From: Paludibacteraceae bacterium
GTDB taxonomy: Bacteria > Bacteroidota > Bacteroidia > Bacteroidales > Paludibacteraceae
Length of the DNA stretch: 40,858 nt
Direction: 5' to 3'
Assembly (NCBI GenBank): GCA_024683975.1
Contig: JAIKXR010000137.1
Span: 1-40,858, forward strand
A program made the translations under genes and the position numbers. The notes beneath the pieces were generated by a model. It had not been told where the DNA came from and ran no database searches. It saw nothing but the letters and a program-made list of their open reading frames with translations. Shown one piece after another: positions 2,997-24,651 of the stretch (positions are counted from its first letter, which is position 1; every line of letters starts with the position of its first letter).

Positions 2997-4433
2997 CTAT
3001 CGAATATTAAAATCTCCCATTTCTGCTTTGAACTCTTTATCTATCAAGTGGCACTGCTGCCGGATAATCTGCCGAGAAGTAACCGCAGGCCCAAGGCAAT
3101 AACGTGCGTACAATTGTTTGAAATTCTCTTGATCGTCTTCGACAATGTCTTCCATTGACTGAATATGTGGGAACAAAAGCTTATGATATGCAGCAGTAAG
3201 CCTCTTTACTGCTTTCTTGTCACGTAAATCACAATCCTCATTAGTTTCCACTAGTATATCAAACATATCATCATACTCCGGAGCGGGACGCAATAGGTGA
3301 AGTACGGTAGAGAAATACTCTGTATTAAGCGTCCAACCCTCCATGATATGGCTTTGGTTGAGACGCGGTAACTTCCACCCCTCGATGAAACCATGAAAGC
3401 GATCCATTGTCGCAGACTCATGGAACATCTCCGGCAGATTTCGGAAATAGTCCGTATGCTGAGGTTTAAGGTCTTTATTCAAAGGTATGTTCCCTAACAA
3501 CACCAAACCACACTCTGATTGAAATGGAACGCTATCGACTTTCGTTTCACCGGCTTCAAGATATACTTTCAGAATAGCCTGCATCTCGTCAGGCTCTGCA
3601 AAGGTCATAGTAGAAATCTCATCCATACCGACCACATCGTGGTTCTTTATCACCCCAAACTGCTTAGTAGCCTTATTGTAAAACAAGCGAGCGCGTGAGG
3701 TTTTACCTCCACCAAGCAGCCACGCATACTTGCTAAGGTTAGTATAAACATACGACTTACCCGTCCCCTTAGGACCAAGCTCAATTATGTTGAGGCGTGG
3801 CTCTACTAAGGAGAGCATTCTGCTAATCATGAGCAGTTTCTCCTCCTGCGAGAGCATTTCCGCATTATACTCCATGATGGTAACAAGTACGTCTATCCAC
3901 TCGTCCAACGAGAATTGCTGACGTGCTTGCATAAAATAGTCCATATCTATTTTATATGGCTCAAATGCAAGGTACGATGTGATTTGAATATAGCCATTTC
4001 TTTTGCCCTCCGGCTCTACATATTCAAGAGTGATATTGCCCCAATACTCTCCATCGGCTAGTTCTGCGCCCTTTTCTTGTAGCAGAGTGTCAGTAACATA
4101 AGCATCCGAGGTGATACCTAAATCTGGGATGGTCACTTTGACACGTTTCTTCGCTATATCTGTAGTCGTCGTAAAGCGAGTTGTTATATTTACAACTTCT
4201 CCAGAAATCAGACGTTGCTTGATATAGTTGCTATCAATAGGCATTTTCTCGTCAAGATAATGCTTGAGCGCATCCGCATCAATATTGCCTTCTCTGTCCG
4301 TATAACGACGAAGAACAAAGTCTTTGACAAAAGAAGGCAGATTGCGCCCCTTAAAAAAGGCATTATTACTTACCTGCTTTATAACAGACAAATCCGGAAA
4401 AACTTCCTTGATTTTTTGATTGATGTAAGACAT
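2997..4433 (-). CDS. BrxL-like (BREX Lon-related) AAA+ ATPase, short form without a Lon protease domain
   Basis: Walker A in LIELGPKGTGKSYVYTNLSKYAWLLGGG, Walker-B-like DVVGMDEIS, LVLLGNIPLNKD; resembles BrxL from memory. 478 aa, ends at TAG. Confidence 0.8.
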   Translation of the reverse strand: MSYINQKIKEVFPDLSVIKQVSNNAFFKGRNLPSFVKDFVLRRYTDREGNIDADALKHYLDEKMPIDSNYIKQRLISGEVVNITTRFTTTTDIAKKRVKVTIPDLGITSDAYVTDTLLQEKGAELADGEYWGNITLEYVEPEGKRNGYIQITSYLAFEPYKIDMDYFMQARQQFSLDEWIDVLVTIMEYNAEMLSQEEKLLMISRMLSLVEPRLNIIELGPKGTGKSYVYTNLSKYAWLLGGGKTSRARLFYNKATKQFGVIKNHDVVGMDEISTMTFAEPDEMQAILKVYLEAGETKVDSVPFQSECGLVLLGNIPLNKDLKPQHTDYFRNLPEMFHESATMDRFHGFIEGWKLPRLNQSHIMEGWTLNTEYFSTVLHLLRPAPEYDDMFDILVETNEDCDLRDKKAVKRLTAAYHKLLFPHIQSMEDIVEDDQENFKQLYARYCLGPAVTSRQIIRQQCHLIDKEFKAEMGDFNIR

Positions 4434-5133: not shown

Positions 5134-5762
5134 TAAAAAATATCGCTTTCTTCAAACCCTCTAAATTTTGATGTTTTTGACTCTTCAGGCGAATGTGCCG
5201 GAGGTACTGAGTCCCGTACTTCTATTTTTCTCCTCAAAGAACTCTCACTCTTAGGCTCATCAACAACTTGCTTGTCTCGTAATGGCTTAGTTATCTGATT
5301 CTTGCCCTTATTAAACCCGGAAAGTTTTGCACTAAATTCTGAGCGCAATATAATATCCCTGCTTGAAGATACTTTCAACGCCCCTTCAATATCAGTCGCA
5401 ATCGAATAGTCTTTACCCAACTTTACATTATAACTCTTACCGTCATGGAAAACGAGCAGAGATTCAGACCAATTGAAAATGCATGAACGATGATACTTGC
5501 GTTTAATATTGTAAGGCGAAGATTGCTTTTCCAAATGTTGAGCTGTATCAATCCGGAAGCGCAGCAACTCTTGCTCGTACCAATAGTCACGCACATTGTG
5601 AATAACCTGCAAATCACCCACATTCACCACATCAGAAATTGCGCCACGCTTATAAATGGGCATGAGACTCACTAATGCCCAATGATAAAAACGTATGCGC
5701 CAATTCCAATCGGTCTTGCGATTTGGGATATCTTTAGGTCTAAATAACTTCAACCAAAACAT
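5133..5762 (-). CDS. hypothetical protein of the kinase/FHA/PP2C operon
   Basis: 209-aa ORF; stop overlaps the next gene's GTG start (TAGTG). Confidence 0.7.
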   Translation of the reverse strand: MFWLKLFRPKDIPNRKTDWNWRIRFYHWALVSLMPIYKRGAISDVVNVGDLQVIHNVRDYWYEQELLRFRIDTAQHLEKQSSPYNIKRKYHRSCIFNWSESLLVFHDGKSYNVKLGKDYSIATDIEGALKVSSSRDIILRSEFSAKLSGFNKGKNQITKPLRDKQVVDEPKSESSLRRKIEVRDSVPPAHSPEESKTSKFRGFEESDIF

Positions 5763-5789
5763 ATTACTGCAACCCTTTTAGAACATCTA

Positions 5790-7033
5790 TCTCTTATTAA
5801 CCTTTGTTAGATTTTGTTTCAGCTTGACAATCTCCTGCTCTTTTTGTATAAGTTCTTTCTTCAAGACTTCTACCTCATGGATATTTGCGTTTCCATCAAG
5901 TTCACATTTCAGTTGTTCTATTTCTCTCTCCCGCTGTGAAATTACTTCAACAATGAATCAGTATCCAAAGAGACTTCAACTTCCTCAAATACGCCATCTG
6001 TTTGAAGGTCTGAATACTGCAAATGGTTCTCGAATTGCGACTGCAAATTTACCAATTTTTGATTAACCCGGTACGTATAGAACAAACAAACACCACATAA
6101 GAGGAATACAATAACTACCGCTATTGTTCCGACTAAATTAAGTTTCTTCATATCTTTAGTTTCTACATTAATTTTATCTTCTTTTCCCTTATCGGACTCC
6201 TTAACAGGAGCAACACCTCCCTCTTCACGAACTTGCTCATGCTCTGTTTGGTTAACTGTTTTCTCTTTCTCTTCAGCGATATATTCCACCAGCACGACAG
6301 TTATATTATCTTTCCCCCCTGCTTCATTAGCAGCAGCAATAAGAGATTTCGCTTTGGAGGTTAAATTTTTGCCTGTTTTAAGAACTTCAATTATCTGCTT
6401 AGACGTAATTAAGTCAGTTAATCCATCAGAACAAAGCAAAAAAATTGAGTTTGGCAACAAAGGAAATTCCGCTGCCTCTAAAAAATCACGGTCGGCTACT
6501 TCGTGCTTTGCAGAGCCAACATCACGGCTTATGACATTACGTTGCGGATGATGCATAGCCTGCTCTTCTGTCAAGTCACCCATTTCCTCTCGATAACCGA
6601 TGAGTGAGTGATCATGAGACAACTTTCGAAGTTCCCCATGATGAAATTGATACAAACGTGTATCACCAACATGCACCATGTCAATGACTTTCCTTTGTTT
6701 GTCAACTATAGCTGATGTCAATACACAACTCATAGATGGCCTGGCCGTGTCAACCTGACGCCTGTCAAAAATAGCATTATTTGCACTAACTACTGCCTGC
6801 TTCAGCAGTTCAAGACGCTCACCATTTTGGAAGTTTTGCAGATACTTCGGGATTTCTGTCCGCGCAATCTCGGCAGCAACTTCACCTCCTTCGTATCCAC
6901 CAACTCCATCAATAGCCACTGCAAGGACGGTGTTAATATCCATCTGCTTAGCAACGAACGCATCTTCATTATTAGTGCGTTGCCGCCCCATATCTGTCAA
7001 ACCGTAAACGGATAATTTCTCTTTCGTTTTCAT
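5790..7033 (-). CDS. membrane-anchored PP2C-family Ser/Thr phosphatase with a coiled-coil C-terminus separated by a -1 frameshift near 5945
   Basis: ORF 5942..7033 has AIDGVGGYEGGEVAAEIA, LCSDGLTDLI, GGKDNITVVLV and a late TM helix (LVGTIAVVIVFLLCGVCLFY). Another frame continues VEVISQREREIEQLKCELDGNANIHEVEVLKKELIQKEQEIVKLKQNLTKVNKR* to about 5790. Confidence 0.85.
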
Positions 7034-8031
7034 ACTAATTCAGGATTTGCATTAAACTCTACACTGATAGTATCATTCAAGAAGATTTTTGAATTGAACT
7101 TTGATAAAGTAACCCAATTCAATGAACCTCCATAACTAAGCGGTACTTCGCGGGCATTTAAACGAGTCTTAGCAAATGCCGCCAAAGCAAAAGTTTGCGT
7201 CATTTTGTCATACTTAATCTGAACATGGGACTTGCTAACTGCATCGCTGTCTATCTTAACGATATTCCTTGTCGAGCGTGTATCTGAGTTCCCGGAAATA
7301 TCTATGTAGTCATCCATCATTTCATATACGTTATATCCGCCTCCTTCCGCTGCCCATCGCAATGTTGCCCATCCTTTTCTTTGCATGTCGGAAGAAGCAG
7401 TGATTAGAGTTGTATCTTCACTGAGATTCTTGTCGAAGTTGAATGTGTATGAGCCTTCGCTCAGAATTTCCATACCAAGAAGCGCGTCCATATTAATATT
7501 ATTCTCGTTGGTATTGGAATTCTGACATTTAACAGATAGATGAACATTCGCTTCTTGTCTAACATTTCCATGCTGTGCCTTTTGAATGTCAAAAGTTGTT
7601 AAACTTCCAGTTGTGATGATTTCTCCCCGCCTAATAATGTCCTCTTTGCCGTCTTTCTCGCCAAACTGACAAGCAGAAAATTGGAAGAACCAATAAGTAG
7701 CTGGAGGTGCGAAATTAACACCGCTATTATATGTGTCACGTTTTTTCTTGATAGAAGCGTAAAACTCTGCGACTACTTCTGGCAAAACGAACGGTAACGA
7801 CTCCTTTGCCGTATTATAGTCATCAGGGTGCATTAAAATGTTAAATGACATAGGATAGAGCAGACGACGACCAACTGACAATTCTTCCATCTGGTCATTG
7901 AAGTGCTCAACCAATTCTTTCAACAAAATCTTGTTGGTTATCTTGGATGTTTGAGGCTTCTGTTTGCCATTATCCGGCTCTACCGTACCTAAAGACAAAC
8001 CTTTCTTCAATAGTTCAAAAATTTTGCACAT
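7030..8031 (-). CDS. FHA-like-domain protein
   Basis: 333-aa ORF; C-terminal IVKIDSDAVSKSHVQIKYDK...LNAREVPLS...SKIFLNDTISVEF looks FHA-like; ATGA overlap with the PP2C gene. Confidence 0.6.
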   Translation of the reverse strand: MCKIFELLKKGLSLGTVEPDNGKQKPQTSKITNKILLKELVEHFNDQMEELSVGRRLLYPMSFNILMHPDDYNTAKESLPFVLPEVVAEFYASIKKKRDTYNSGVNFAPPATYWFFQFSACQFGEKDGKEDIIRRGEIITTGSLTTFDIQKAQHGNVRQEANVHLSVKCQNSNTNENNINMDALLGMEILSEGSYTFNFDKNLSEDTTLITASSDMQRKGWATLRWAAEGGGYNVYEMMDDYIDISGNSDTRSTRNIVKIDSDAVSKSHVQIKYDKMTQTFALAAFAKTRLNAREVPLSYGGSLNWVTLSKFNSKIFLNDTISVEFNANPELV

Positions 8032-8041
8032 AACATTTTAT

Positions 8042-9016
8042 TTATTCATCAATTTGCATATATCTTAATACAACTGCTTTCCCTAATTCAATAAGATCAC
8101 CCGTTTGCAAAGGTATCTTAGCTTGCGGATTATCACACTCAATTTTCTCTTCTCCCCTAAAAATACGAGTTCTTTTGCCCATTAGACGAGTTCCGTCTTT
8201 TTCCACCTGAAAGTAGAAGCCAAATTTCTCCGAGAAGCCAATGTGTGCGTGCATGCGACTAACGTATTTATTCTTCTCAGCCATAGGAGAATTAGGATTG
8301 TCATCAATGGCAATATGATTCTCACGATAGCCTGTCGGAATACGCGGGAACTGACCGCTTCCTATATTATAGGAAGTTAGCATTTTTTTCTTCATGTCAT
8401 TTGAAGAAAGTAGATACTGCTCTTGCAATAAACTTCCGGCTCCTCCAAAGATAGAAATTATTGCTTTGCATGTCTTAACTTCGTTAAAAGTTTCGTGCGC
8501 TAATATTTGCAAATATTCCAGATTACTCTGACCGACTTTTGTAGCATACACCTCTTCTGCGGGGAAACCGATGCAGAAAGCAATTTCATCAAAACCATAC
8601 CCTCGTTCATTAACCAAAGCAATCAATACCCGCTGCTTATATTGCTCCGTGTCGTAATTTTCGAATGTCACTTTGTCGCAAGCAAGCCATATTACCAACT
8701 TCTTGCCAACAGTAGTATCCTTATATTCAACAACTTTTTGCAGAGTATTAATAACGCTCCGAATCAAAGCATCTCTACTTTCTATATGCTCTTCTTTTTT
8801 CTCTTGAGAATCGTTGTTTTTCTGGGCTGGTGCAGACTCTTCATATTTCTGCTCATGAACAACACCTTTCTCATTTTTTTCAACAGCAGATGTCTCGACC
8901 TCCTTATCCGCGGGACTCTCAACCGACGGCGTACCAACTACAGGTTGGTTGTTTTCTTGTAAGGCATCTCCAATACTATTGGAAAGCCGATGAATCCAAT
9001 TCCCTATTTTTGACAT
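8042..9016 (-). CDS. FHA-like-domain protein
   Basis: 324-aa ORF; C-terminal RIPTGYRENHIAIDD...KYVSRMHAHIGFSE...PLQTGDLIELGKAVVLRY is FHA-like. Confidence 0.7.
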   Translation of the reverse strand: MSKIGNWIHRLSNSIGDALQENNQPVVGTPSVESPADKEVETSAVEKNEKGVVHEQKYEESAPAQKNNDSQEKKEEHIESRDALIRSVINTLQKVVEYKDTTVGKKLVIWLACDKVTFENYDTEQYKQRVLIALVNERGYGFDEIAFCIGFPAEEVYATKVGQSNLEYLQILAHETFNEVKTCKAIISIFGGAGSLLQEQYLLSSNDMKKKMLTSYNIGSGQFPRIPTGYRENHIAIDDNPNSPMAEKNKYVSRMHAHIGFSEKFGFYFQVEKDGTRLMGKRTRIFRGEEKIECDNPQAKIPLQTGDLIELGKAVVLRYMQIDE

Positions 9017-9028
9017 ACATCTTTAATT

Positions 9029-11011
9029 TTATTCACATATACTCTTAAGTACAGCAATTTCTTTATTTGCTTTGTCTAAAGCTGTTGATTTTTCTCCCAA
9101 TTCCTTATTCAGGCGAGTGATTTCGGCATCTTGTTGCTTAATTTTTATCTGCAAGGCTGAAGCATCTGTTCCCTTAGCTTTCTGTAATTGTGTATTTAGA
9201 GATGCCTTATCTTTATTTGCTTGTTCCAACTCGGATATTTTTTGCCTCAGTTGATCCGTCAAACGTTTATTTTCCGTATCTCTGTCAGAAAGTTTACTAT
9301 TGAGCGATGCTATTTCAGCAGATTTATCCGATGATATTAGTTTCTGCTTTAATTCTTTGTTCTCTTTTTGTAATTGGGATATTTCCTTATCTTTTTGAGA
9401 TATTTGACTGTTAAGTGATGCTATTTCAGCAGATTTATCCGATGAACCTTGTTTCTGCTTTAATTCTTTGTTCTCTTTTTGTAATTGGGATATTTCCTTA
9501 TCTTTTTGAGATATTTGACTGTTAAGTGATGCTATTTCAGTAGATTTATCCGATGAACCTTGTTTCTGCCTTAATTCTTTGTTATCCTTTTGTAATTGGG
9601 CTATTTCCTTATCTTTTTGAGATATTTGACTCTTAAGTGATGCTATTTCAGCGGAATTATCCGATGAACCTTGTTTCTGCCTTAATTCTTTGTTATCCTT
9701 TTGTAATTGGACTATTTCCTTATCTCTTTGACTTTTCATATAGGTCATTGATGCACCCCACATACCCAAACCAAGGAAGAGAATAATAACTATAATAGGA
9801 AGATGGTGCTTAGAGCCTGATTTTACCAGTTCATCTATTTTCTTCTGAGCCGTACGGAGTTCCTGTTGTACTTGCATAAGAGTGTTTTTCGCCCCACTCA
9901 GTTGCGTATTCAACGAGTTGTTGGTAGAACGCAAATCATTAACCTCTGCCGCAAGATCCTTGTTGCTCGAAGTTAAACTCTCAATCACCACATCATTGTA
10001 AACATTATTGTTCTTCTTAGATTGAGCGATGATATACTCATATAATTCCTTGCCGTTTTTAAATCTTTCGGCGGGATTCTTCCGCAAACATTTCAAAATA
10101 ACATCTTCAAGCCATTGCGGATAGTCTCGCTCATACTGCTGCCCATTAAACTTCCGCTCGAAGAACTCCTTACGAATAGCCTCAATGGATGGAGGTGTAG
10201 CTGTTTTATGCGCATTCATCAACTTATACTCTTCCGCAGTCCCATTGCTGTTCTTTAAATCATATTGGAACGGTACGCGCCCCGCCAAATACTGGTATAG
10301 CACAATACCGAAACTATAAATATCTGACTGCTCCGTAAGTATAGATTCGTTATCCCATTTCTCCGGAGCCTTGAATTCCGGTGCTCCGTTCGTATGACGA
10401 CTACTACGCACAACCTCATCACCATTGATAGCCAAACCGAAATCAAGCAGTACAAAGTTACCGTCTTCCCGACGCATGATGTTGCCGGAATGAATATCGT
10501 TATGTATAACTTTGTATCGTTCAATCAAACGATTACGAGTTTTTTCATCAATCAACACCTTTGAACCATCTTCCGGATCATCTTGCAGATTGTCCAGTTC
10601 TCTATCCATACAGAAACGATAGATATCTTCATGACAATATGCAAGAGCACTGCTAATTTGTATTGCCATTAGTACCACATCTTCCGCAGAGACAAAATTT
10701 TGATTTTGTTTGAGATAGTGCAAAATATCTTGACCATCAACATAGTCCATCTCAACAAGAGCCTTGTTGTCAAGCAACCGAGGTTGGTATATATGCACGA
10801 TATTGGGATGATTGCCATTCCCAAGACGCAATAACAATTTACACTCGCGCAAGAACTTCTGATAAGTCTTACTTGTGCTATCAACGATGGTTTCATTCAG
10901 CACACGAATGGCGCGAATATAACCCAACTTATTATGACGAACCTTATAGACAGTGGCGAAACCGCCCTTGCCTAATTCGTCAAGCATCGTATATTCCTGT
11001 AAAAATGCCAT
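9029..11011 (-). CDS. membrane Ser/Thr protein kinase (PknB/STK-like) with C-terminal coiled-coil repeats
   Basis: 660 aa: LGKGGFATVYKVRH, VIHNDIHSGNIM, VLLDFGLA, APEKWDNESILTEQSDIYSFGIVLYQYLAGRVPF; TM helix LPIIVIILFLGLGMWGASM; then KDKEIxQLQKxNKELxQKQGSSDKS repeats. Confidence 0.9.
   Translation of the reverse strand: MAFLQEYTMLDELGKGGFATVYKVRHNKLGYIRAIRVLNETIVDSTSKTYQKFLRECKLLLRLGNGNHPNIVHIYQPRLLDNKALVEMDYVDGQDILHYLKQNQNFVSAEDVVLMAIQISSALAYCHEDIYRFCMDRELDNLQDDPEDGSKVLIDEKTRNRLIERYKVIHNDIHSGNIMRREDGNFVLLDFGLAINGDEVVRSSRHTNGAPEFKAPEKWDNESILTEQSDIYSFGIVLYQYLAGRVPFQYDLKNSNGTAEEYKLMNAHKTATPPSIEAIRKEFFERKFNGQQYERDYPQWLEDVILKCLRKNPAERFKNGKELYEYIIAQSKKNNNVYNDVVIESLTSSNKDLAAEVNDLRSTNNSLNTQLSGAKNTLMQVQQELRTAQKKIDELVKSGSKHHLPIIVIILFLGLGMWGASMTYMKSQRDKEIVQLQKDNKELRQKQGSSDNSAEIASLKSQISQKDKEIAQLQKDNKELRQKQGSSDKSTEIASLNSQISQKDKEISQLQKENKELKQKQGSSDKSAEIASLNSQISQKDKEISQLQKENKELKQKLISSDKSAEIASLNSKLSDRDTENKRLTDQLRQKISELEQANKDKASLNTQLQKAKGTDASALQIKIKQQDAEITRLNKELGEKSTALDKANKEIAVLKSICE
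9298..9738 (-). repeat. four tandem 111-bp (37-aa) coding repeats in the kinase C-terminus
   Basis: QKDKEI[AS]QLQK[DE]NKEL[RK]QKQGSSDKS[TA]EIASLNSQIS repeated four times; nucleotide repeats visible in both strands. Confidence 0.9.
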
Positions 11012-11024
11012 AATTCAAAAAATA

Positions 11025-11615
11025 TTAGAATGTTATAACATAAAGTAGATAGTATCTTCCATTCTTTTCATCAGAGCAATCCACAGAGAGTTCTTTCCCT
11101 GTTTCAATATTCTTCACATAATATCGTATGTCATATATATTACTTGATGTTTTGGCCACGGTTGATGTCCAATAATTTCCACTTAATTGGAGAAAATTCT
11201 TATTAGGAATTATTCTATTTAATTCACTAAGTGTTATTAGATGAGCATCTTCCAAAAGAAACATCTGGCTTGAATACAGATGTTTGGAATATCCGTTATC
11301 ACAAATTGCAAAGCCATGTTCTTTCGATGGTTCCAGGTAAGCCACTTTGAAAGTATAACCTTTGAATTTAATCCTCTCGCCTATTGCATATTTCTTGACA
11401 GCCGCTTCCTTACAATCATCAATTAGAACTTGAACTGATGGTTTCTGCTCACCTGACAGGTCTTTGTAAACATTGTAAAATTTTTGTGCAGACTCACAGT
11501 CGCCCGCTTCCAGTTTCTCCATTGCCTTATTCAGGTAGGAAGAATAATCAGATTGTGCATTTATTGTCAATGCGAACATTGCAAACAATACGAAAATTAT
11601 ACGTTCAGTTTTCAT
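11025..11615 (-). CDS. secreted protein: shared N-terminal helical module plus C-terminal DUF1566/Fib_succ_major-like region
   Basis: Start reassigned to MKTERIIFVLFAMFALTINAQ. Module SDYSSYLNKAMEKLEAGDCESAQKFYNVYKDLSG, then HGFAICDNGY...LSGNYWTST. Confidence 0.7.
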   Translation of the reverse strand: MKTERIIFVLFAMFALTINAQSDYSSYLNKAMEKLEAGDCESAQKFYNVYKDLSGEQKPSVQVLIDDCKEAAVKKYAIGERIKFKGYTFKVAYLEPSKEHGFAICDNGYSKHLYSSQMFLLEDAHLITLSELNRIIPNKNFLQLSGNYWTSTVAKTSSNIYDIRYYVKNIETGKELSVDCSDEKNGRYYLLYVITF

Positions 11616-11653
11616 ATTAAATTGATTTTTAGAAATTAGACCAACGTAACATT

Positions 11654-12451
11654 TTACCAATCCCATTCAACTTCATTTGTAATATCCTTTTTGTCGCCAA
11701 CTTTATTTCCGTCTAAATCATAAAGTTGTTTATAACATTTGCGGGTCTCATTTTGATAGTCGTATTGAGCCCAACTGCATTCAAGAAATTGTTCTCCCTC
11801 CTTTTCTACTATGTCGCAACCGCTGTAATGCGGTATGTGGATGGCAGAGAAAGGGGCTATATTAATGATATAGTGATATAAATTGCGACAATCAGGATCT
11901 CCTGTGATAAGTAATTTGTCATGGGAGAGAACGTTCACTTCTTCTATAGCTCTGATATATCCGTTCTCATAACTTGCTTCTTCTTTATACACCCGTTCAA
12001 TTTCATCATCATTATTGTAAGCAATCCAATTTTGCGCCTTAATCGGTAATTTGGTTCCTGTTTGCTTGTCTCCCTTGGTCTCCAGCAAGAAATATATCTC
12101 TTGTGTCTGACTATCTATTAGATAAATCCTTGATGCTATATAACAAAGTGTTTCTTCTGTGTCTTCTTTATATACAATCCAACCTTTCCCGTGAGCAATT
12201 TGTTTTGCGTTATCAGGCATTTTACCCGAAATTTTTTGCATCCCGCTTGTGAAGACAGGTCGTTCTGTATCTTTAAGTATATCTCCTGTGTCGCCCTCCG
12301 CTGATGTACTTGACATAGCGGGGCCAGCAATACTGTCCGTTAACTCTTGTTCTTCGGTTTTGTTCTCTTTTGTCTTTTGAACAGAAGAACATGCGTCACA
12401 AAAAATTGTTATCGCCATAAAAGCGAGAGAAAAGTATATTTTTGTTTTCAT
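11654..12451 (-). CDS. lipoprotein of unknown function
   Basis: 265-aa ORF with lipoprotein-type signal MKTKIYFSLAFMAITIFCDACSS. Confidence 0.7.
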   Translation of the reverse strand: MKTKIYFSLAFMAITIFCDACSSVQKTKENKTEEQELTDSIAGPAMSSTSAEGDTGDILKDTERPVFTSGMQKISGKMPDNAKQIAHGKGWIVYKEDTEETLCYIASRIYLIDSQTQEIYFLLETKGDKQTGTKLPIKAQNWIAYNNDDEIERVYKEEASYENGYIRAIEEVNVLSHDKLLITGDPDCRNLYHYIINIAPFSAIHIPHYSGCDIVEKEGEQFLECSWAQYDYQNETRKCYKQLYDLDGNKVGDKKDITNEVEWDW

Positions 12452-12626: not shown

Positions 12627-12735
12627 ACATTTCCATAATTACCCCATTGTAAAAGTCTATTTGAATTATGATTAATAATTAAACGGGCAGCGAAAGTTCT
12701 TTCACACGAAATAAAAACGTTAAAGATTACAACGA

Positions 12736-13326
12736 TTAAAATCGATATATCTTAAGGACAACAAGCTTACCCTCACCAACGGCTCTATGATATGTGCCTC
12801 CCCCTGTTGCAAAATCCATAACATACAGAATTGTTTTTTCGGGATTCAATTTACCTTTTACCCAACTCGACTGATACATATTACATGACCAATATTTTTC
12901 GAACAGCCTAACTATATCTCTATTCTCATATATAAGTTTTAACTCTTCTATGCTTGGAATTCCTCTCTTTTCAACATCCTCTTCTAAATCCAGTTCCCCC
13001 CATCCCAAATCGCAAATAGCTAAACCATGTTTCCCGCCATCTCTTACATAAGCCACTATGTACACTTTATCCTAGACTTTTATTTGGTCTCCGATATTAT
13101 ATGTCTTATCCTGACTTTCCCCACAATCCGCTATCAAAACCTCTAACGAAGAGACAGACTGTCCAGACAATTCTTTGTAAACGTCATAAAACTTTTGCGC
13201 AGCCTGACAATCTCCCTGCTCCAGTTTCTCCATTGCTTTATGCAAATAGGATGAATAATCATATTGGGCATTTGCAGAAAATGTAATTAGCGCAAACAAT
13301 GCAAATATGATATCTCTCGTTTTCAT
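12736..13326 (-). pseudogene. secreted paralogue of the 11025 protein, split by one in-frame TAG (13072-13074)
   Basis: GDQIKV*DKVYIVAYVRDGGKHGLAICD is one frame and aligns with GERIKFKGYTFKVAYLEPSKEHGFAICD of the intact paralogue. Confidence 0.7.
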
Positions 13327-13350
13327 ATAAATTAAGTTTTAGGCTACTAT

Positions 13351-14295
13351 TTATGACCTTTCGATGTAATCTATTCTGAAATCGGTTTCATTATTACTTA
13401 TAACTTTCTGCTGATTAGGAGGAACAATACTACAGAAAGTAACCCATTCACCTGAATAATTAAGTTCCAGACCTGCAATTTCCATCGCAATCTCACAGTT
13501 ATTCTCTGCAACTAAGTTCCCCATCAGCCAACCTCTTTTGATAGAGCACTTCACACAGTCGTCATATCTATGCGTTTTTACTATGTCAATACTTTTTGAC
13601 TGAATAAATTCAATTTTCCAATCACTTATGTCGTCCAAAACAAGCATATAACTGCCTTAACATCATAGGCACGAGTATCAGAACTCAATCGAGTAGATAT
13701 GCTAATCATATAGCGCTTATTAGAGTCTTCTTCAACAGGAAAAATCTTAAGTTCCGATACGCCGTTCTATAGAATCTTCCCTTTCCAAGATTGTGTATAG
13801 TATCCGTTTTACTTCCCTTCAGAAAGGGTATGCCCAACTAAATACTTAGAGATTTGAGTATCTTTCGGTTTCGACGGAAATATCAACTTGACTTTCTGTA
13901 AGACAGCAGGAGAAAGTTCTACCGTTTCCAAATCAGGCTCATAAACAAATACGAATACTTCACGAGAAGCCAAACCGGACTCGAATTCCCTTAAGTCAGA
14001 CGTACTCTTTGCTTTCTTACGAACTTGTGCCTCCTTTTGCTCAATTGCGTTCCACTTCTTTAGGTAAGTTTGATGACATTCCCTCAAGAGGTTCAAATAC
14101 TCACCCATCACAGCCGAACAACTATTATATTAGCCCGGAAGTTCCTGAGCGAAATCCTCTCCTACTTTTTCGGTTGCTTCGAAATACGCCTCAACGCAAC
14201 CGTTGTACTCTTCTGCTAATTTTATTCCTTTTTGGTAAGGACTGATGCTACAACATGTAAGGAATATGCAACGCAAATGCAACTATTTTCTTCAT
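13351..14295 (-). pseudogene. decayed lipoprotein gene (two frameshifts, three in-frame stops)
   Basis: Reconstruction: MKKIVAFAL(fs)IFLTCCSISPYQKGIKLAEEYNGCVEAYFEATEKVGEDFAQELPG*YNSCSAVMGEYLNLL...TLSEGK*NGYYTQSWKGKIL*NGVSELKIFPVEEDSNKRYMISIS...DVKAV(fs)MLVLDDISDWKIEF...DYIERS. Confidence 0.65.
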
Positions 14296-14310: not shown

Positions 14311-15114
14311 TTACTTTTGCCACCCCCATGCCACACCTATCTTCAAATTAACTGACGGGGCATAAATTTTATTTAACACGTCATACGAAGCGCCTCCGCT
14401 TAAACCCAGAAAGAATCCTGCGCCGTCTTTAAGATCAGTAACCAGATTATAACCTGCATGGAAAAGAATACCGCGACTGTTTTTTACCTCCTTTTTGGCA
14501 TAATTAGGTTGTTCGTCATTTGAATATGAATCAGGCACTGAGATATTATCAACAGACAGTTTGGCAATTGTTCCATATCCACAGTCAAGAAACAATCCCT
14601 TGTACGGATAAAACCTCACTCCTCCCGCATAGCGGAAAGCTGTTTTTAAGGTTTTGTCGTGTCCAGTGTTATTATTGTAGCCGTATTTATAAGTGTATTC
14701 TATTTGTGTAAAATCCATACCGATGTCTCCATATAGTCCTACGCCAACAATTCCCCCTCCACGAAACTCAATTCCAGTCACTAAATTCCATGGATAGCCC
14801 GCACCTGCTATATTCCATGCAACGTAGCGATTCTTGTTTGCTTTACAGTAGGAACTTTCCATATAATCTCTCTTTGGTTTCTTTTCATTTTTTTTCTGCT
14901 TTTCGACTCGACAATCATCTATCAATGCTTGCACAGAAGGCTTAAATTGCCCCGACACTTCTTTGTAAGCATCATACCACTTCTGTGCCCCCTCACAATT
15001 TTCCTTGCTAAGTTCCTTCATGACCCTATCCAAATAATCAGAATCATCCGATTGCGCGACCATGTTTGCTGCACACATCATGCAAACAGCGATAAAAAAT
15101 AATTTAGTTTTCAT
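14311..15114 (-). CDS. secreted/outer-membrane protein: shared N-terminal module plus beta-barrel-like C-terminus
   Basis: Start reassigned to MKTKLFFIAVCMMCAANMVAQ; module SDYLDRVMKELSKENCEGAQKWYDAYKEVSGQ; Gly/aromatic alternating C-terminus. Confidence 0.65.
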   Translation of the reverse strand: MKTKLFFIAVCMMCAANMVAQSDDSDYLDRVMKELSKENCEGAQKWYDAYKEVSGQFKPSVQALIDDCRVEKQKKNEKKPKRDYMESSYCKANKNRYVAWNIAGAGYPWNLVTGIEFRGGGIVGVGLYGDIGMDFTQIEYTYKYGYNNNTGHDKTLKTAFRYAGGVRFYPYKGLFLDCGYGTIAKLSVDNISVPDSYSNDEQPNYAKKEVKNSRGILFHAGYNLVTDLKDGAGFFLGLSGGASYDVLNKIYAPSVNLKIGVAWGWQK

Positions 15115-15140
15115 ATCTTTAACGATTAAACTTACACATT

Positions 15141-15656
15141 TCACTTGAATGAGAATACTCTCCATTTATTATCTTTGAATACAAGGATAACTCTAGCGTC
15201 TGCATCGTGCTCGTTACCAGAATAAAACTGACCATATACATCAACGCAAACAAATCTGACAGAACATGTAGGTATGTCCTTGTATGATTCTTCAACATCG
15301 GTAAAATTCATCTTATGATAATATTCATCTGAACACGCTATTTGATATCCTTCTTTCAACAAAGGTCTCATACCGCATATATCTTGAATTCTCCCCTCGG
15401 TAAATACCTCACTATATGACTTCAATCCCAACTCGTTGAAATAATAGTCATCAATCATTTTTGTGAAAGATGGATCAACAAAATCTAACATACGTTGGTA
15501 ATCACAATTGATTACCGACATAACAAAATTCCATGCCACTGCTTGCGGTGATTTACACTCATTTATTTCTTCATTGCTCAAGAAATGATAATTCTGAGCA
15601 GCTGAAGTTATTGCACAAAACGTGCAAATTGCAACTAAAAAGATTTTTGTTTTCAT
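15141..15656 (-). CDS. secreted NTF2-like/DUF4878-like small protein
   Basis: 171 aa, signal peptide, SPQAVAWNFVMSVINCDYQRMLDFVDPSF...ARVILVFKDNKWRVFSFK. Confidence 0.6.
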   Translation of the reverse strand: MKTKIFLVAICTFCAITSAAQNYHFLSNEEINECKSPQAVAWNFVMSVINCDYQRMLDFVDPSFTKMIDDYYFNELGLKSYSEVFTEGRIQDICGMRPLLKEGYQIACSDEYYHKMNFTDVEESYKDIPTCSVRFVCVDVYGQFYSGNEHDADARVILVFKDNKWRVFSFK

Positions 15657-15662
15657 ATGGTT

Positions 15663-18600
15663 TTAATTAATTTTATTTACATATCCTTTACTGTACAAGG
15701 ATTCGAGCACTACTGATTTTGTCAAACGTACTGCAGCACCGGATCCTGTACTCCGTTCCATCCGGACAACTACAGCCAAGGGATGTTTTCCATCTTGGCT
15801 CTCCACAAAAAACATATACCAGCCGTCGTTGGGCTTCTCAATAAGCGGACGAGTGTGATATCTTCTGGTCCACTTGTTGTAATAACGTATTTCCTTTACC
15901 CTGCGCTCGCGTTCAGGAGTGCCGGTCTTTCCTCCGACAAAGGATGGAAGAACTATTCCATTTCTGCTCCTTTGATTTGCAGACTCTCCCTTCATATAAT
16001 CTTTTAATATATTGGCCGAACTCGAAGATAAAAGTTGAACATCGCCAGCCTCGATATTATCTTTAGCATACTTGTTGGACGGAAGAAGGAATTGAGTATA
16101 TGGCATCTTGCCATCATTAACTACAGCTGACGCAATACGAGCCATATTCAGAGGAGATGCTTGAAGTTCATATCCGCTATAACCTTGCCCCCACGCCCAA
16201 CGCCATTCTCCTTCATTCATTTTCTTATGCACATCATCCTCAATGCGCTTAGCGTATTTAACGAGCGCCTTACCCTGATTCTGACGTATCTTCTCACGGA
16301 AGGCTCCTTGTTTATCCTTATCCACTGCATAGCGCAGATAGTATGGTGCTATTCCTCCCACACTAACACCAACTGCTTCGTAAACACTATCTAATGCCCA
16401 ATAAAGATCGTTCTCATTCACAAGATTAATAAAATAGCAGTTAGAAGAATAGACGATGGCGTCCCTCATAGAAACCCTATACCCATGTGGTTCCGGGGCT
16501 TTTCCGGTCTCTATAATATCTTCAGCAGTTACTAAATACATCTTATCAGCAGCAGATGTTCCCAGCGCCTCAAAACCAGACATAGCAGACATTACTTTCG
16601 CTGTAGAACCTGGCATTGTCTGATAGGTCAAACCCAAATCTCGCTCTGTATACGCTTGCCAACTCTTGGGCTTGTAATTGTCTGAATAACTATAATGACC
16701 TTGTGCATCTTCTTCTCTTAACCTCCGATAGTCCGGTAGAGGATAGTTCGCTGAGGACAATAGTTCTCCATTCTCTGCGTCAAGAACCACAACTGAAATA
16801 CGAAGCAAATTATTATTCTTCAATACAGGAGTCTGCTCTACATAATTCGAAATCCTATTCTGCAAATCGGTTTGTAATGCAGCATCAAGCGTCAAGTGTA
16901 AATCAAAATCCCCATCACGTACATCCTTGTTATGTCTACGCAAAGGCTTACCGTTAATGCCGGTCTTTAAGTACTTTATCAAATCACTATTGTCCCTCAT
17001 ACGATACGCAATAACTGTATCACGCGTGCCAGACGTTACATACCGGAAACCAGATTGTACAGAACCGGCCAATTTGACTTTGACAGGCTTATGTTGCTTG
17101 TCATATAAGTTGTTATCATAATCGCGCAAGTAAGACAAGTGTTGTGCTTCCGCCATATAACCAATCGGATTATCCTCGTTATAAGTGAAGAACAAACCCG
17201 TATTTTGGTCACCCAACATGAAGTACAAATGCTCCCCAAAAGGATAGTAGCGCCTTGTATGAGATGCATAGATTTTATTTAGACAAGAGTCTGCCACTCC
17301 TGCTTTTACGAGCAATAAATGTACATCTTCATCCTTAAGTTTATCTTTATCACTGGTGGCAAGCAATACACCATTACGGTCATAAATATTACCAGCCCAC
17401 ATCTCTTTGGTAAGCAAAGCTATACGAGGATTATATTCTATTATTGGAAAACCTTCACGCGAGTAGACAAATGCAGGATGAACGAGCGTTTTTCCTCTTG
17501 CCCACAACGCATAATACTGCCATACGCACAAGGTGAATAAGGCTAAAACAATGAAAGACCATGTAACGATTGAAATAGGATAGTTATAGTCTCCCACACT
17601 CCGGCGGCGCACTTCCTCTTGCACTCCATTCATTACCTCATTCCTTGTGCTCATTGAGAGAGAAAGCACAATGGCGAATGCAGTCAAGTTCAGCACCATA
17701 CTAACACGACCGTAACTAAGGAACGGTACGGTAATACCAGTCAGCGGTATCATACCACTGCTACCCAATGCTATAATGAAGAATTGCACCGCAGTCACAA
17801 CTGCGACACCCATGCAAAAATAAAAAGCAAACGGATGCCCGACACGATAACCAATCAAAACTATCCTGCGCAATAATAGAGCAATCGCAACAACAACGAG
17901 CAGCAACCCCAACCATCCCAATTGCTCTCCAATGGATGACAGGATCATGTCTGTGTGAAAGGCAGGAATTAAATTTGGATTGCCATCTCCCAAGCCTTGA
18001 CCTGTCATGCCTCCGGTTGCGATTGCCCACAACCCATTCGCAACCTGAGTGTTGCTTACCGCAGCATTTTTGGCTCTTTTTAAATCAGACCCGTCTGCCA
18101 TCTGCCAATCTCCCCATGTGTTGACGCACATGCGCGTGCGTTGTTCAAAACGCTCCGCCGTATCAGTATCACGCACATAAGGAATTTGTTTGGCAACATC
18201 TCCTCCAAAGATTAAGGCGAATACAAGAAGATTTATTATAAAAGCAGACTCGAAAAATTGTTTATGCCATGTTATACCAAAGAGAACCCAGACAACAAAC
18301 CAAAGCAATGCGAAAACAAGTGTGTTCCCAATAACAGATCCGATGAAAATGAACACAGCAAAACTGATAATACCATATATCATTATAGCGAAGTCGCATG
18401 TGAAGATACGTTTCCATTTATCAATATCTGAAAGATTCTCAAGATTCACTTTGGACTTAACCAGTGAGTAAAGCAATACAAAGGTAACTCCCACTACAAC
18501 CGCTGGCCCCATGTCGCCGAGTACAGCATAAATTAGTACTAAAAACACCAGACCGCCTATGACCCAACCGAGAGTTCGAATCTTATCCCAAACCCGCGTT

Positions 18601-20126
18601 CGGTTTGGTTGCGAATATGCTATAATTGTGTCAGCATTCTGCGTAAAGAAAGCTGCCATGAAGAAAAGAATCAAATATTTTGCAATCTCACTTGGCTGAA
18701 AGGTAAGACCTCCAAGGCTCAAATTGACTTTCATTCCTCCAATCTCTCTACCAAGAGGTGTCCACAAAAGACCTGTAAGAATTATAGCAAAAAACATCCA
18801 GCCAAACCCCTTTGGAGCCATGTCAATAAACTTTAGAATTTGTTTATTGATTTTACTAAGAAATGGCAGATTAAAAATAGCAAATGGCAGAGAAAGCAAA
18901 AGAAGGAATAATGCTCCCAATTTTTTATACCATGCACCATACCCTTTTAGCACTGGAACAAGCCATGAGACTTTCTGCTTGTATGGAAGGAATAACCAAC
19001 GCAAGACTTGCATCGGTATGTCAAAGTCGAACTTATACCCTCCCTGATATAACTTTACGAAATCGACAAACTGAAAGAGTATTATAATTCCAACTCCGAT
19101 CAATACACCAGTTGCCATTTCCGCACCGCGTAATTCCTCGGTGAGAGGATTCTGAATGGCAAACATAATAATCACGCACAATCCTGACAAGAACATAACC
19201 GAAGCCAACAACAGCGGGTCAAAATTGCGCTTGCGCCGAACCATTACAATTGCCAACAGCCACCATGCCAGCAGAACCAATACAAACCATTTAATAACTT
19301 CGGCCTTAAACTCCGAAGGCGTACGCACCGTTATGGTTCCGTCGTTCTTAATCTGCCTAAGAGTAGCATTGTCAATCATCTGTATCCGATGTTCGACCTG
19401 CTCGAATCTAAACGTAACATCCTTTCCGAATTTTCCCTCCTTGATACCTTTAGATGAACCATATTCAAACCCTCGTTTAATTGGCAAAACACTATACGCC
19501 TTTTTTCTGTCCAAGCCTTTAAAAGTTACTTGACCTAACGAATCGGACTTTGCATAAGCGACTACGTTAGCTACAGCATGTCCAGAAGAATCGGTCGAAT
19601 ACTCTGTTAGTGGAATAATAATATCTGCAAAATCTTGCGCTTCCTTCGAATGAATTTGCACGGTAATTATTCCATCCGATCCCTCTTTACAATCACCAAG
19701 TTTGACGGAACATGACATCGAATCAAGCGGAGGAAAACTCTGTAACAAACCTATAGCTTGATTTGACTTTTCCAATTTTTCCGTCAGCACGTGCGCTGAA
19801 TCTGCAACAAGTGCCGGCACTTTGCCATAAGCCCTCTTTTGGAGATGGTACAAATTGCTATACTTAAGGCCACGGCGTAACCTTGCTGTCAATGTATCAG
19901 CTATGAAGTCCGCATCACGCCGATTGGCAACATAGTGGTTGTTTGCCAAAACATCCGATAATTTGTCCCGAGATAGATCGCGAGATAAATTAACCGTGCT
20001 ATAATTTTCATAATTCTCCTCGACTATTGTAAATCGAGGACCAAGATTATGAAAGTAGAGAAACAACATGCTGCACAAAATAAGTGTAGCTATGAGCATT
20101 GCATACTTTGAGAAAGATTTCATCAC
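15663..20126 (-). CDS. SEDS glycosyltransferase (FtsW/RodA family) fused to penicillin-binding transpeptidase
   Basis: 1487 aa: SEDS core (GDMGPAVVVG..., SSIGEQLGWLGLLLVV, GMIPLTGITVPFLSYG), then PBP motifs GSTAK (SxxK), YSSNCYF (SxN), GGKTGTPERE (KTG). Confidence 0.95.
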   Translation of the reverse strand: MMKSFSKYAMLIATLILCSMLFLYFHNLGPRFTIVEENYENYSTVNLSRDLSRDKLSDVLANNHYVANRRDADFIADTLTARLRRGLKYSNLYHLQKRAYGKVPALVADSAHVLTEKLEKSNQAIGLLQSFPPLDSMSCSVKLGDCKEGSDGIITVQIHSKEAQDFADIIIPLTEYSTDSSGHAVANVVAYAKSDSLGQVTFKGLDRKKAYSVLPIKRGFEYGSSKGIKEGKFGKDVTFRFEQVEHRIQMIDNATLRQIKNDGTITVRTPSEFKAEVIKWFVLVLLAWWLLAIVMVRRKRNFDPLLLASVMFLSGLCVIIMFAIQNPLTEELRGAEMATGVLIGVGIIILFQFVDFVKLYQGGYKFDFDIPMQVLRWLFLPYKQKVSWLVPVLKGYGAWYKKLGALFLLLLSLPFAIFNLPFLSKINKQILKFIDMAPKGFGWMFFAIILTGLLWTPLGREIGGMKVNLSLGGLTFQPSEIAKYLILFFMAAFFTQNADTIIAYSQPNRTRVWDKIRTLGWVIGGLVFLVLIYAVLGDMGPAVVVGVTFVLLYSLVKSKVNLENLSDIDKWKRIFTCDFAIMIYGIISFAVFIFIGSVIGNTLVFALLWFVVWVLFGITWHKQFFESAFIINLLVFALIFGGDVAKQIPYVRDTDTAERFEQRTRMCVNTWGDWQMADGSDLKRAKNAAVSNTQVANGLWAIATGGMTGQGLGDGNPNLIPAFHTDMILSSIGEQLGWLGLLLVVVAIALLLRRIVLIGYRVGHPFAFYFCMGVAVVTAVQFFIIALGSSGMIPLTGITVPFLSYGRVSMVLNLTAFAIVLSLSMSTRNEVMNGVQEEVRRRSVGDYNYPISIVTWSFIVLALFTLCVWQYYALWARGKTLVHPAFVYSREGFPIIEYNPRIALLTKEMWAGNIYDRNGVLLATSDKDKLKDEDVHLLLVKAGVADSCLNKIYASHTRRYYPFGEHLYFMLGDQNTGLFFTYNEDNPIGYMAEAQHLSYLRDYDNNLYDKQHKPVKVKLAGSVQSGFRYVTSGTRDTVIAYRMRDNSDLIKYLKTGINGKPLRRHNKDVRDGDFDLHLTLDAALQTDLQNRISNYVEQTPVLKNNNLLRISVVVLDAENGELLSSANYPLPDYRRLREEDAQGHYSYSDNYKPKSWQAYTERDLGLTYQTMPGSTAKVMSAMSGFEALGTSAADKMYLVTAEDIIETGKAPEPHGYRVSMRDAIVYSSNCYFINLVNENDLYWALDSVYEAVGVSVGGIAPYYLRYAVDKDKQGAFREKIRQNQGKALVKYAKRIEDDVHKKMNEGEWRWAWGQGYSGYELQASPLNMARIASAVVNDGKMPYTQFLLPSNKYAKDNIEAGDVQLLSSSSANILKDYMKGESANQRSRNGIVLPSFVGGKTGTPERERRVKEIRYYNKWTRRYHTRPLIEKPNDGWYMFFVESQDGKHPLAVVVRMERSTGSGAAVRLTKSVVLESLYSKGYVNKIN

Positions 20127-20142
20127 GCAATATGGTTTTAAG

Positions 20143-20217
20143 TTACTTCTTAGGACAAACTACCATCTTGAGCGTCCCACAATAAGGGCATGTTATAACG
20201 TAAGCCTGCGTGTTCAT
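20143..20217 (-). CDS. candidate 24-aa Cys-containing micro-ORF upstream of the SEDS-PBP gene
   Basis: MNTQAYVITCPYCGTLKMVVCPKK*, just upstream of the 20126 start; contains CPYC...C. Confidence 0.3.
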   Translation of the reverse strand: MNTQAYVITCPYCGTLKMVVCPKK

Positions 20218-20464
20218 TTGCCATTAAATTTAAGACACAACAAATATGGGCGCGAAATTACAAAAAAAAATCCGTAATTGCAAGTTTTAAAACTAAAAAT
20301 TATTTTGCAACCATTTTTGACAACACTCCGTTAAAAACGAACTTAATTTATTAAAAATAAATGCTTTATTTGAAATATTTTAGTATCTGAAAATTTGGTC
20401 AAGTGGGAGAAATGTTTTTACTCGGATGTCTGTTTTGATAGAGGTATGCGTCAATCACAACGCT

Positions 20465-22486
<2,022 letters not shown>

Positions 22487-22489
22487 CTA

Positions 22490-24055
22490 TCAATTGTCAA
22501 TTATCAATTTCCTATGCTTCACTTCACCGTTTGCATAAACGTGTATCACGTATATCCCTGCTTTCCAATCGCTTGTCGGCAGCGTGTAAGTCTCGCTTTC
22601 TATCTTCCTCTCCATCATCTCCCGTCCTTGCATATCATATACTCTCACGTAACCTCCAGCCGCATTATCCACACTCAAATAACCATCTGCAAACAATATA
22701 TCCGCCCTGCTCACGATCTCCGCTTCCATCGAAACGCCCGCCTTACTCAGATTCAGCCCCACCAATATCGGGTCGTGGTCCGAGTATCTGAACATCGTCC
22801 CGTCATCCGACTTGTCATAGGTGTAACTGTCCCGCTCGTCTGAATTGATATGATAAGCCGTCATTCCGGTCACCTGTGGAAGCATGGTGGCTGTTGCTAA
22901 CGCATGGTCCAAATAACCCGCCTCACCATAATAAGTGTAACTGTAACTGCTGTCCTTGTGATAATATCTGTGCAAATCGGTCATCCCGTAATCGGTCAAT
23001 ATGCGTATGGGATCCTCCTTCGCGTATGCGTTCAAGTCGCCCATCACCAAAAAGTCCTCATCACCGATAAAATATCTGAAACTCTCATACTCTGTCAGCA
23101 GCGATTGTGCCTCCCGCACCCTGTCACCGTTATATGTGCTCTGACCATCACCCTTATCCGCATTGTCACCGCTCCCATAACCGGATTTGGCTTTGAAATG
23201 ATTGACACTCAACACAAAACGCTCACCCGTGGATTTCTCTTCAAAACATTGCATCGTCTTCCTGTACTTGACTCCCGTACTGTTCCATCTCAAATCCCCG
23301 TAGGTGTTCACAGTCTGCACACAATACACATAACCTGCCTTCGTATAACTGCCGTTAGCCGTTGTTCCGTCATCCACGTAAGTGTATGTCCTCCCTGTCG
23401 CTTTCGTCAAATCCGCCGCTAACTCTTTTAAGGCCGACTGCCCCATCTCAATCTCCACAAAACCGTATATGTCAGCACCTATCTTCGCCAAAGCCTGACT
23501 TACTTTCCTCCGCTGTGCCTCATGCTCGCTCTGCGAATCAGGACCGTAACCGGTACCCAGATTCTCCACAAGATAATACTCCAGATTAGCCGCACATACC
23601 AACAGGCTGTGTTTGCCTCGCTTGTCTATTGCGACCACATCATATCCTGCCAATATGTCCTCCCTCGTATTGCCTATCCAAGTTCCGCTCACCAATGTCA
23701 TCGAACCGGTCGATGTGACATTCACCACACCGTCACGCAACCTCTCGCCCATCCTGTGATAACCGCTCACACCTGACAACACCACCGAACCACTCTGATT
23801 CATGCTCAATAGGGAACTGTATTCAGCCGACCCCGGCAACACCTGATTGGTAGGCGAATACAACCGTCTCGGACTTATCCTGTAACCGCCATAGTTGTTC
23901 GTTATATACCACTCATCCGCCAGTTTCACTTGCTTCCCCACATACTGACTGAGCTGGCTCGTGGTCCACCCCTCTTTGTCACTAACAGTCAATATCGTCT
24001 GTGCCGGAAGAGACACACACAATAATAACAGATATATGACTGACGCTTTTTTCAT
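22490..24055 (-). CDS. secreted endonuclease/exonuclease/phosphatase-family nuclease with T9SS-type C-terminal tail
   Basis: Signal peptide; NHFKAKSG, GDLNAYAKEDP, YSDHDPILVGL motifs; C-terminal VRVYDMQGREMMERKIESETYTLPTSDWKAGIYVIHV sorting-like tail. Confidence 0.85.
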   Translation of the reverse strand: MKKASVIYLLLLCVSLPAQTILTVSDKEGWTTSQLSQYVGKQVKLADEWYITNNYGGYRISPRRLYSPTNQVLPGSAEYSSLLSMNQSGSVVLSGVSGYHRMGERLRDGVVNVTSTGSMTLVSGTWIGNTREDILAGYDVVAIDKRGKHSLLVCAANLEYYLVENLGTGYGPDSQSEHEAQRRKVSQALAKIGADIYGFVEIEMGQSALKELAADLTKATGRTYTYVDDGTTANGSYTKAGYVYCVQTVNTYGDLRWNSTGVKYRKTMQCFEEKSTGERFVLSVNHFKAKSGYGSGDNADKGDGQSTYNGDRVREAQSLLTEYESFRYFIGDEDFLVMGDLNAYAKEDPIRILTDYGMTDLHRYYHKDSSYSYTYYGEAGYLDHALATATMLPQVTGMTAYHINSDERDSYTYDKSDDGTMFRYSDHDPILVGLNLSKAGVSMEAEIVSRADILFADGYLSVDNAAGGYVRVYDMQGREMMERKIESETYTLPTSDWKAGIYVIHVYANGEVKHRKLIIDN

Positions 24056-24195
24056 GATTCCAATTCACTGCTTATTTATCCCTCACTCTTTGTACGCTAT
24101 GGTACGCACAAGGTCAGGCGGTGACATCAAAAGCACACCGAAAGCCGCAAAATTACTCCTTTTTCCACATTATGACAAAAAAATCACTGATTTTC

Positions 24196-24226
24196 TTTGA
24201 CAATCACAAAATTTGTCGTACTTTTG
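24196..24226 (+). promoter_or_regulatory. Bacteroidetes-type promoter for tmRNA
   Basis: TTTG (24196-24199), 19-nt spacer, TACTTTTG (24219-24226). Confidence 0.75.
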
Positions 24227-24256
24227 CGCACTTTTCTGAACGAAAACTCCTTACAT

Positions 24257-24651
24257 GGGGATATTCCGGTTTTGACAGCAAGCCGAATAGGTACGTAAGC
24301 ATGTCGGACACGAACACCGGCCGTTATCACGGGTTCAAAGCAAATTTAACTGGCAACTACGAAGTAGCTCTCGCAGCCTGATCGAAGTATAGTAGATCGC
24401 TTTATTGGGGTACAAGGTATCTCATCGGGACGTCTCTCCAAGCCCTTGTCTTGAGGCTTAAGGATAAAGAGGCGCAGCAATATCAAGACTAACCTTTGCA
24501 AGCTGCGATGCACAGGCGAAACTCAAGCAGATAAGGCAACGACCGGAGGCTTGGACCAAAGTCGTTGCACGAAAAGACAAACCAAGACAAGCATGTAGAA
24601 AGCGTATGGATTCCTTGTTTGGACGCGGGTTCGACTCCCGCTATCTCCACA
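24257..24651 (+). ncRNA. ssrA: transfer-messenger RNA (tmRNA)
   Basis: 5' GGGGATATTCCGGTTTTGACAGC, tag frame GCAAATTTAACTGGCAACTACGAAGTAGCTCTCGCAGCCTGA, 3' CGGGTTCGACTCCCGCTATCTCCA. Confidence 0.95.

Follow-up and report, generated by a model that had tools for sequence, protein, structure and literature searches.

Full activity of peptidoglycan polymerases of the SEDS (shape, elongation, division and sporulation) family depends on a class B penicillin-binding protein (PBP), and RodA-PBP2 fusions made by engineering are functional in vivo as well as in vitro (PMC6207328, PMC10449877). Natural examples in which a SEDS protein and a PBP are encoded by a single open reading frame exist as well, according to PMC10449877, which cites the genome of Rhodococcus RHA1 in this context (its ref. 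18). In Actinobacteria, an operon encodes the kinases PknA and PknB, the phosphatase PstP, and the proteins FhaA and FhaB around RodA-PbpA (PMC6554272, PMC11898655). Here, we analyse a locus from a Paludibacteraceae bacterium (phylum Bacteroidota) where a SEDS-class B PBP fusion gene (positions 15663-20123, minus strand) is found together with genes for a Ser/Thr kinase, a PP2C phosphatase, an FhaA-like protein and a second FHA-domain protein. The window, meaning the whole stretch of DNA analysed, comprises 40,858 nucleotides of contig JAIKXR010000137.1 (assembly GCA_024683975.1). We consider it probable that the fusion protein is a complete and dedicated accessory peptidoglycan synthase which is controlled by phospho-signalling.

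The minus strand contains a single open frame from 15663 to 20126, with 1487 codons if counted from a GTG at 20126. An ATG at 20123, one codon further on, is the likelier start and yields a protein of 1486 residues, and all residue numbers given here are counted from it. The protein scores well above the Pfam cut-offs for both FTSW_RODA_SPOVE (PF01098; 134.7 bits, cut-off 26.4) and Transpeptidase (PF00905; 60.2 bits, cut-off 22.1). Its layout is a transmembrane segment, a periplasmic region, the SEDS membrane domain, a cytoplasmic linker, the transmembrane anchor of the PBP, a putative pedestal region and the transpeptidase domain. The SEDS part (residues ~300-826, 17646-19226; glycosyltransferase family GT119) matches PDB profiles of FtsW (8bh1, E 5.6e-43) and of RodA (8tj3, 6bar and 6pl5). 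It contains a His-Thr-Asp motif at residues 723-725 (17949-17957) that is invariant in 38 of 38 aligned fusions, including Asp725, which corresponds to the essential extracellular-loop Asp of SEDS proteins. The short cytoplasmic linker between the last SEDS transmembrane segment and that of the PBP (17574-17648) is 27 residues long in the window; most of the aligned fusions have a linker of 20 residues, and the range across all of them is 20-30. The linker leads to the membrane anchor predicted by hydropathy at residues 850-868 (17520-17576).

Between this anchor and the transpeptidase domain, ~230 residues carry conserved RxYP and LRG motifs; the pedestal/dimerisation family PF03717 was not matched in the Pfam scan. 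The transpeptidase domain (15720-16796), for which Foldseek returns PBP3 and PBP2, has the motifs S1173TAK, S1226SN and K1399TG, and these are invariant across the 38 fusions except for a KSG in three. With SxxK, SxN and KTG present, and with no match to the Transgly domain (PF00912) in the Pfam scan of the fusion protein, this half can be classed as a class B PBP. Since none of the catalytic residues is lost, the protein would most simply be an active bifunctional peptidoglycan synthase.

An additional region precedes the SEDS domain. Hydropathy places the first transmembrane segment at residues ~7-25 and the next at ~276-294, leaving ~250 periplasmic residues between them. This N-terminal periplasmic region (residues ~28-275, 19299-20042) consists of a helical part followed by a Cna-B/transthyretin-like beta-sandwich (~139-250), as seen in a predicted model of residues 1-329 (mean pLDDT 92.8). 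The beta-sandwich matches a pilin profile (3phs, E 1.1e-5), and the Foldseek matches of the model are pilin/prealbumin-like folds, comprising Cna-B-type pilins and beta-sandwiches of the transthyretin/dioxygenase type. Query TM-scores are near 0.2, because a single domain of the model aligns, and the match denotes a fold class only. Residues 290-1486, modelled in one piece (pLDDT 85.4, pTM 0.77), have PBP3 and PBP2 as top fold matches, while the sequence-profile matches of the fusion span FtsW/RodA and PBP2 structures alike. An earlier note on this DNA had described a single 1487-aa polypeptide joining a SEDS polymerase to a class B PBP, with the motifs of both in one uninterrupted frame and an extra region between the first two transmembrane segments; its coordinates and length agree with the open frame, every motif was found, and the extra region is real.

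As the assembly behind the window is a draft in 182 contigs, an assembly or annotation artefact that united two genes had to be considered, an objection already raised in the earlier note. However, the same junction with its linker of near-constant length recurs across the 38 fusions, and similar fusions, whose open frames span 1222-1551 residues, are present in many independent genomes. One of these is a complete record, the circular Spirosoma oryzicola plasmid NZ_CP089545, on which the fusion is a single coding sequence annotated as 'FtsW/RodA/SpoVE family cell cycle protein'. Since the catalytic residues are kept in 38 sequences and since fusions occur in independent assemblies, we regard the chance of an artefact as negligible. 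A fused housekeeping RodA-PBP2 or FtsW-FtsI pair would fit the domain content, and the NCBIfam ftsW and rodA models do match the fusion, but the scores stay far below the equivalog cut-offs (TIGR02614 for FtsW, 132.6 vs 337.5; TIGR02210 for RodA, 103.8 vs 336.7). The window genome has two other SEDS genes, on contig 163 (adjoining a PBP gene) and on contig 22, and two other transpeptidase PBPs, on contigs 163 and 113, so that the fusion is a third SEDS and far from being the sole SEDS/PBP of the organism. In 16 further fusion genomes that were searched, the matches fit two stand-alone SEDS plus the fusion in each. At strict E-values, the fusion was found in none of the four other genomes of the genus that were sampled, and two same-genus genomes lacking it have two SEDS only. 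We built a SEDS tree from the SEDS parts of 20 fusions and from 23 stand-alone proteins (actinobacterial sequences lie outside this sample); in it, the fusion SEDS parts form one clade with 100/100 support, apart from the RodA clade and the FtsW clade of the same phylum. A housekeeping pair is therefore very unlikely. Having its own clade, scores below the FtsW and RodA cut-offs, and separate SEDS genes beside it, the fusion SEDS is, as judged from sequence, a third SEDS type that is neither a fused RodA nor a fused FtsW. It is equally improbable that the fusion replaces class A PBPs. The window genome has no Transgly (PF00912) match, as this would require, but Transgly genes are present in each of the 17 further fusion genomes tested and in all four same-genus genomes, so that this idea was dropped; the absence is probably a gap in the draft genome (93.98% complete).

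The putative regulators of the fusion are encoded on the same strand by four genes that are spaced by 10-12 nt or overlap. A transmembrane Ser/Thr kinase (9029-11011) has its transmembrane segment at residues 404-422, followed by a C-terminal coiled coil that is predicted to be periplasmic. This C-terminal part is made up of near-identical coiled-coil repeats (KDKEIxQLQKxNKELxQKQGSSDKSAEIASLNSQIS). The next gene (8042-9016) encodes an FHA-domain protein in an FhaB-like position, which keeps the SxxH core, scores 17.7 bits (sub-threshold) and is conserved beside the module in relatives. It is followed by the gene for the FhaA-like protein (7030-8031, 333 residues), which appears to combine an FhaA_N-type N-terminus with a divergent FHA domain. 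The distant counterpart of the latter protein at the related locus L044 scores above both the FhaA_N and the FHA cut-offs, and a profile comparison of the window FhaA-like group with the L044/L047 pair covers 262 columns (98.3% probability, E 1.8e-14). In control genomes, the FhaA_N model has matches in C. glutamicum and S. acidocaldarius, above the cut-off in one. The fourth gene (5942-7033), with a 4-nt overlap to the FhaA-like gene, codes for a PstP-like PP2C phosphatase with a C-terminal transmembrane segment at residues 300-318. PstP and PknB have a single transmembrane segment each. The window PP2C and the kinases also mostly have one, as reported for PstP (PMC6554272).

In most other clades, the genes are arranged, apart from small variations, as kinase, FhaA-like, PP2C, fusion, FHA, kinase; this arrangement or a near variant of it is also seen on the Spirosoma plasmid. 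The window and its closest relatives have the fusion at the front, with the genes for the kinase, the FHA protein, the FhaA-like protein and PP2C behind it. At two loci (L016 and L041), the PP2C and fusion genes share 11-14 nt, and at L047 (7262-11416) the phosphatase is itself fused to the synthase, PP2C, SEDS and transpeptidase forming a single protein of 1384 residues. Of 396 genomes searched in the phylum, 15 have the fusion, and 14 of these, but no others, have the FhaA-like gene (hypergeometric P ~7e-25, uncorrected for kinship or physical linkage). As this value ignores shared ancestry and linkage, what it shows is that the genes move together; it is not proof of a joint function. In the three f137 genomes, the FhaA-like match listed is on another contig than the fusion, and an FhaA_N+FHA gene lies beside the fusion there too. 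The FHA partner at L046 (10435-11805) has an N-terminal Swt1-like HEPN domain (90.1 bits), and that at L047 (11479-12753) looks similar by eye.

The distribution of the fusion module is sporadic. The fusion was found in 3 of 101 genomes of the family, 2 of 393 of the order, 15 of 396 of the phylum and 25 of 151 of the family of genome G863, all of these counts being lower bounds due to the strict E-values applied. The fusion of G072, a genome of the window's own family, groups with that of G755 from another family (support 100/99). This grouping, which departs from species kinship, and the copy on the Spirosoma plasmid argue for horizontal transfer of the module. Two distinct fusion proteins are encoded by genome G618, each at its own locus (L045:5165-9088 and L044:8441-12106).

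We favour a mechanism where the SEDS half would polymerise lipid II while the tethered class B PBP half would cross-link the nascent strand and would also, in analogy to RodA-PBP2, activate the SEDS half via its transmembrane segment and pedestal. The short cytoplasmic linker would fix the 1:1 pair and so block an exchange with the housekeeping SEDS-PBP pairs, and the N-terminal beta-sandwich probably stands in for an activator or localiser acting from outside. The genes nearby would provide a private phospho-signalling circuit. Its enzymes would be a membrane PP2C and a membrane Ser/Thr kinase with a part outside the cytoplasm, and the FhaA-like and FHA proteins would serve as adaptors that recognise phosphothreonines and control either the synthase or the supply of its substrate, similar to the actinobacterial pstP-rodA-pbpA-pknA/B-fhaA/B arrangement. 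We infer that conditional or stress-related wall synthesis would be the physiological role. The proposal of the earlier note that a fixed 1:1 SEDS-PBP pair represents a specialised peptidoglycan synthase gains support from the additional SEDS and PBP genes and from the conserved locus with its regulators, the enzymatic function being read from the sequence. A wider reading, which we put forward tentatively, is that of a mobile, self-contained module in which a third and ancient SEDS lineage, fused to a transpeptidase, has its own kinase, phosphatase and two phosphothreonine readers; such a signal-switched synthase would operate independently of elongasome and divisome, and would be passed horizontally among Bacteroidota.

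Several features of the window weigh against phospho-control of this kind. In its kinase and in those of close relatives, the Lys of the VAIK motif is replaced by Arg and a His is present in the catalytic loop (HNDIHSGN in the window), with DFG being kept; the kinases of other clades retain HRDIK/HGDVK catalytic loops. Because of these replacements, kinase activity in the window clade is uncertain and signalling there may be altered. The kinase has no Pfam match to a PASTA domain, the coiled-coil C-terminus following its transmembrane segment instead. On its own, the FhaA-like protein of the window reaches just 13 bits against FhaA_N (E 0.14, sub-threshold) and has no clear Pfam match. The regulators are ~4.6 kb away from the fusion, with secreted-protein genes and apparent gene remnants intervening, so that the arrangement represents linkage only and does not imply co-transcription. 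Scans for sigma-70 promoters and for terminators yielded sites no more numerous than in shuffled sequences.

Other roles for the synthase can be envisaged. It might be a conditional spare enzyme selected for resistance, which would permit wall growth when antibiotics or toxins of competitors block the housekeeping pairs, following the logic of a low-affinity PBP and with the kinase set as a damage sensor. The sporadic, mobile distribution and the presence of the fusion in addition to the housekeeping enzymes are compatible with this, and PBP2a is among the PDB profile matches; it matches no better than an ordinary PBP2, however (104.9 vs 104.4 bits), and the neighbours scanned included no recognisable resistance gene, so that we consider such a role unlikely. 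We give somewhat less weight still to a synthase specialised for a developmental or surface structure (a cyst, a filament, or the envelope anchoring of the secreted and outer-membrane proteins of the locus), comparable to SpoVE-SpoVD in sporulation. Secreted U213-type proteins do recur with the fusion in the window clade, but they were not recognised in other clades, whose loci conserve the kinase/PP2C/FHA core instead. A defence system, suggested by a nearby BrxL and by a kinase matching the PD-T4-6 and MAD6 models, was considered and rejected: no defence model matched the fusion, the FHA or the FhaA-like proteins, the kinase matches look generic, and BrxL was recognised in the window and at L007 only. 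The BrxL-like Lon-type protein of the window (2997-4433, minus strand; 576 bits) is full-length, and other BREX genes were not recognised nearby. At L007, a copy in the corresponding position is 93% identical, as opposed to just 69% for the fusion.

Several further genes, all on the minus strand, surround the fusion. A small secreted protein of the U213 family (11025-11666) recurs at the loci of close relatives (L005, L006, L007 and L037), and two secreted proteins of 171 and 284 residues are encoded directly downstream of the fusion (14311-15656), the longer one with a weak match to an outer membrane protein beta-barrel. Amid these secreted-protein genes, broken gene fragments (12700-14250) are related to L006 14453-15406 (317 aa) and appear to be a decaying copy. 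Just ahead of the fusion, a 24-codon frame (20143-20217; MNTQAYVITCPYCGTLKMVVCPKK) resembles the zinc-ribbon proteins that precede the L005 fusion and may be a leader peptide or a remnant. The L005 module region also contains several zinc-ribbon proteins and TIR-like proteins (5393-6562 and 22933-24309). A Bacteroidetes-type promoter-like sequence, TTG-N20-TAATTTCG, was read by eye upstream of the fusion near 20260-20290. The ligA gene for the NAD-dependent DNA ligase (20465-22483) is interrupted after residue 319 by an in-frame stop codon that separates the adenylation domain from the remainder of the protein; the frame is the same on both sides, and either the draft has a wrong base here or the nonsense mutation is real.

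If our interpretation is correct, the PknB/PstP/FhaA/FhaB set around RodA-PbpA, which has been deemed an actinobacterial speciality, is present in Bacteroidota as well, where it is streamlined, portable and attached to a distinct SEDS clade. Some Bacteroidota would then carry a third wall synthase that studies focused on the housekeeping enzymes would miss, with a bearing on the action of beta-lactams. A natural SEDS-class B PBP fusion with built-in 1:1 stoichiometry would also be a good test system for the activation of SEDS proteins by PBPs and for the gating of wall synthesis by phosphorylation.

What is known already is the SEDS-PBP fusion as such and, in Actinobacteria, the pkn/pstP/fha/rodA/pbpA association. 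The earlier note considered the fusion unusual, the two proteins being normally separate; the fusion is real here, but since natural SEDS-PBP fusions have been mentioned before (PMC10449877), it is not new on its own. The linked Ser/Thr kinase/PP2C/FhaA/FHA set, which that note did not mention, is more telling. For the combination of a Bacteroidota fusion with these regulators, its separate SEDS clade and its sporadic, mobile occurrence, we found no description in the open-licence literature. The Rhodococcus RHA1 fusion, likened here by its description, also has one open reading frame for SEDS and PBP; it belongs to another phylum, and no accessory phospho-signalling module accompanying it was found described in the papers searched.

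In gene content, the locus resembles the actinobacterial fhaA-fhaB-pstP-rodA-pbpA-pknA-pknB operon. The same functions are present (SEDS, class B PBP, membrane PP2C, membrane kinase or kinases, an FhaA-like protein and a second FHA protein), and the genes for PP2C, Ser/Thr kinase, SEDS and PBP are genetically linked in both. In the actinobacterial operon, however, rodA and pbpA are separate genes, whereas they are fused in 38 sequences here; the gene order differs; the kinase has PASTA domains; and the operon is core, while the Bacteroidota module is accessory, spreads horizontally and exists beside another RodA and FtsW. The N-terminal periplasmic beta-sandwich is an extra feature of the Bacteroidota fusion. 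RodA-PBP2 of E. coli and T. thermophilus and FtsWI of P. aeruginosa share the two catalytic units and their motifs with the fusion, but are naturally separate chains that lack the N-terminal periplasmic domain, and the fusion SEDS clade is distinct from the FtsW and RodA of Bacteroidota. The engineered RodA-PBP2 fusion with a GGGSx3 linker (PMC6207328), an active polymerase, has the same covalent order of SEDS followed by PBP; it is synthetic, whereas the linker of 27 residues described here is natural and the gene is part of a locus with putative regulators.

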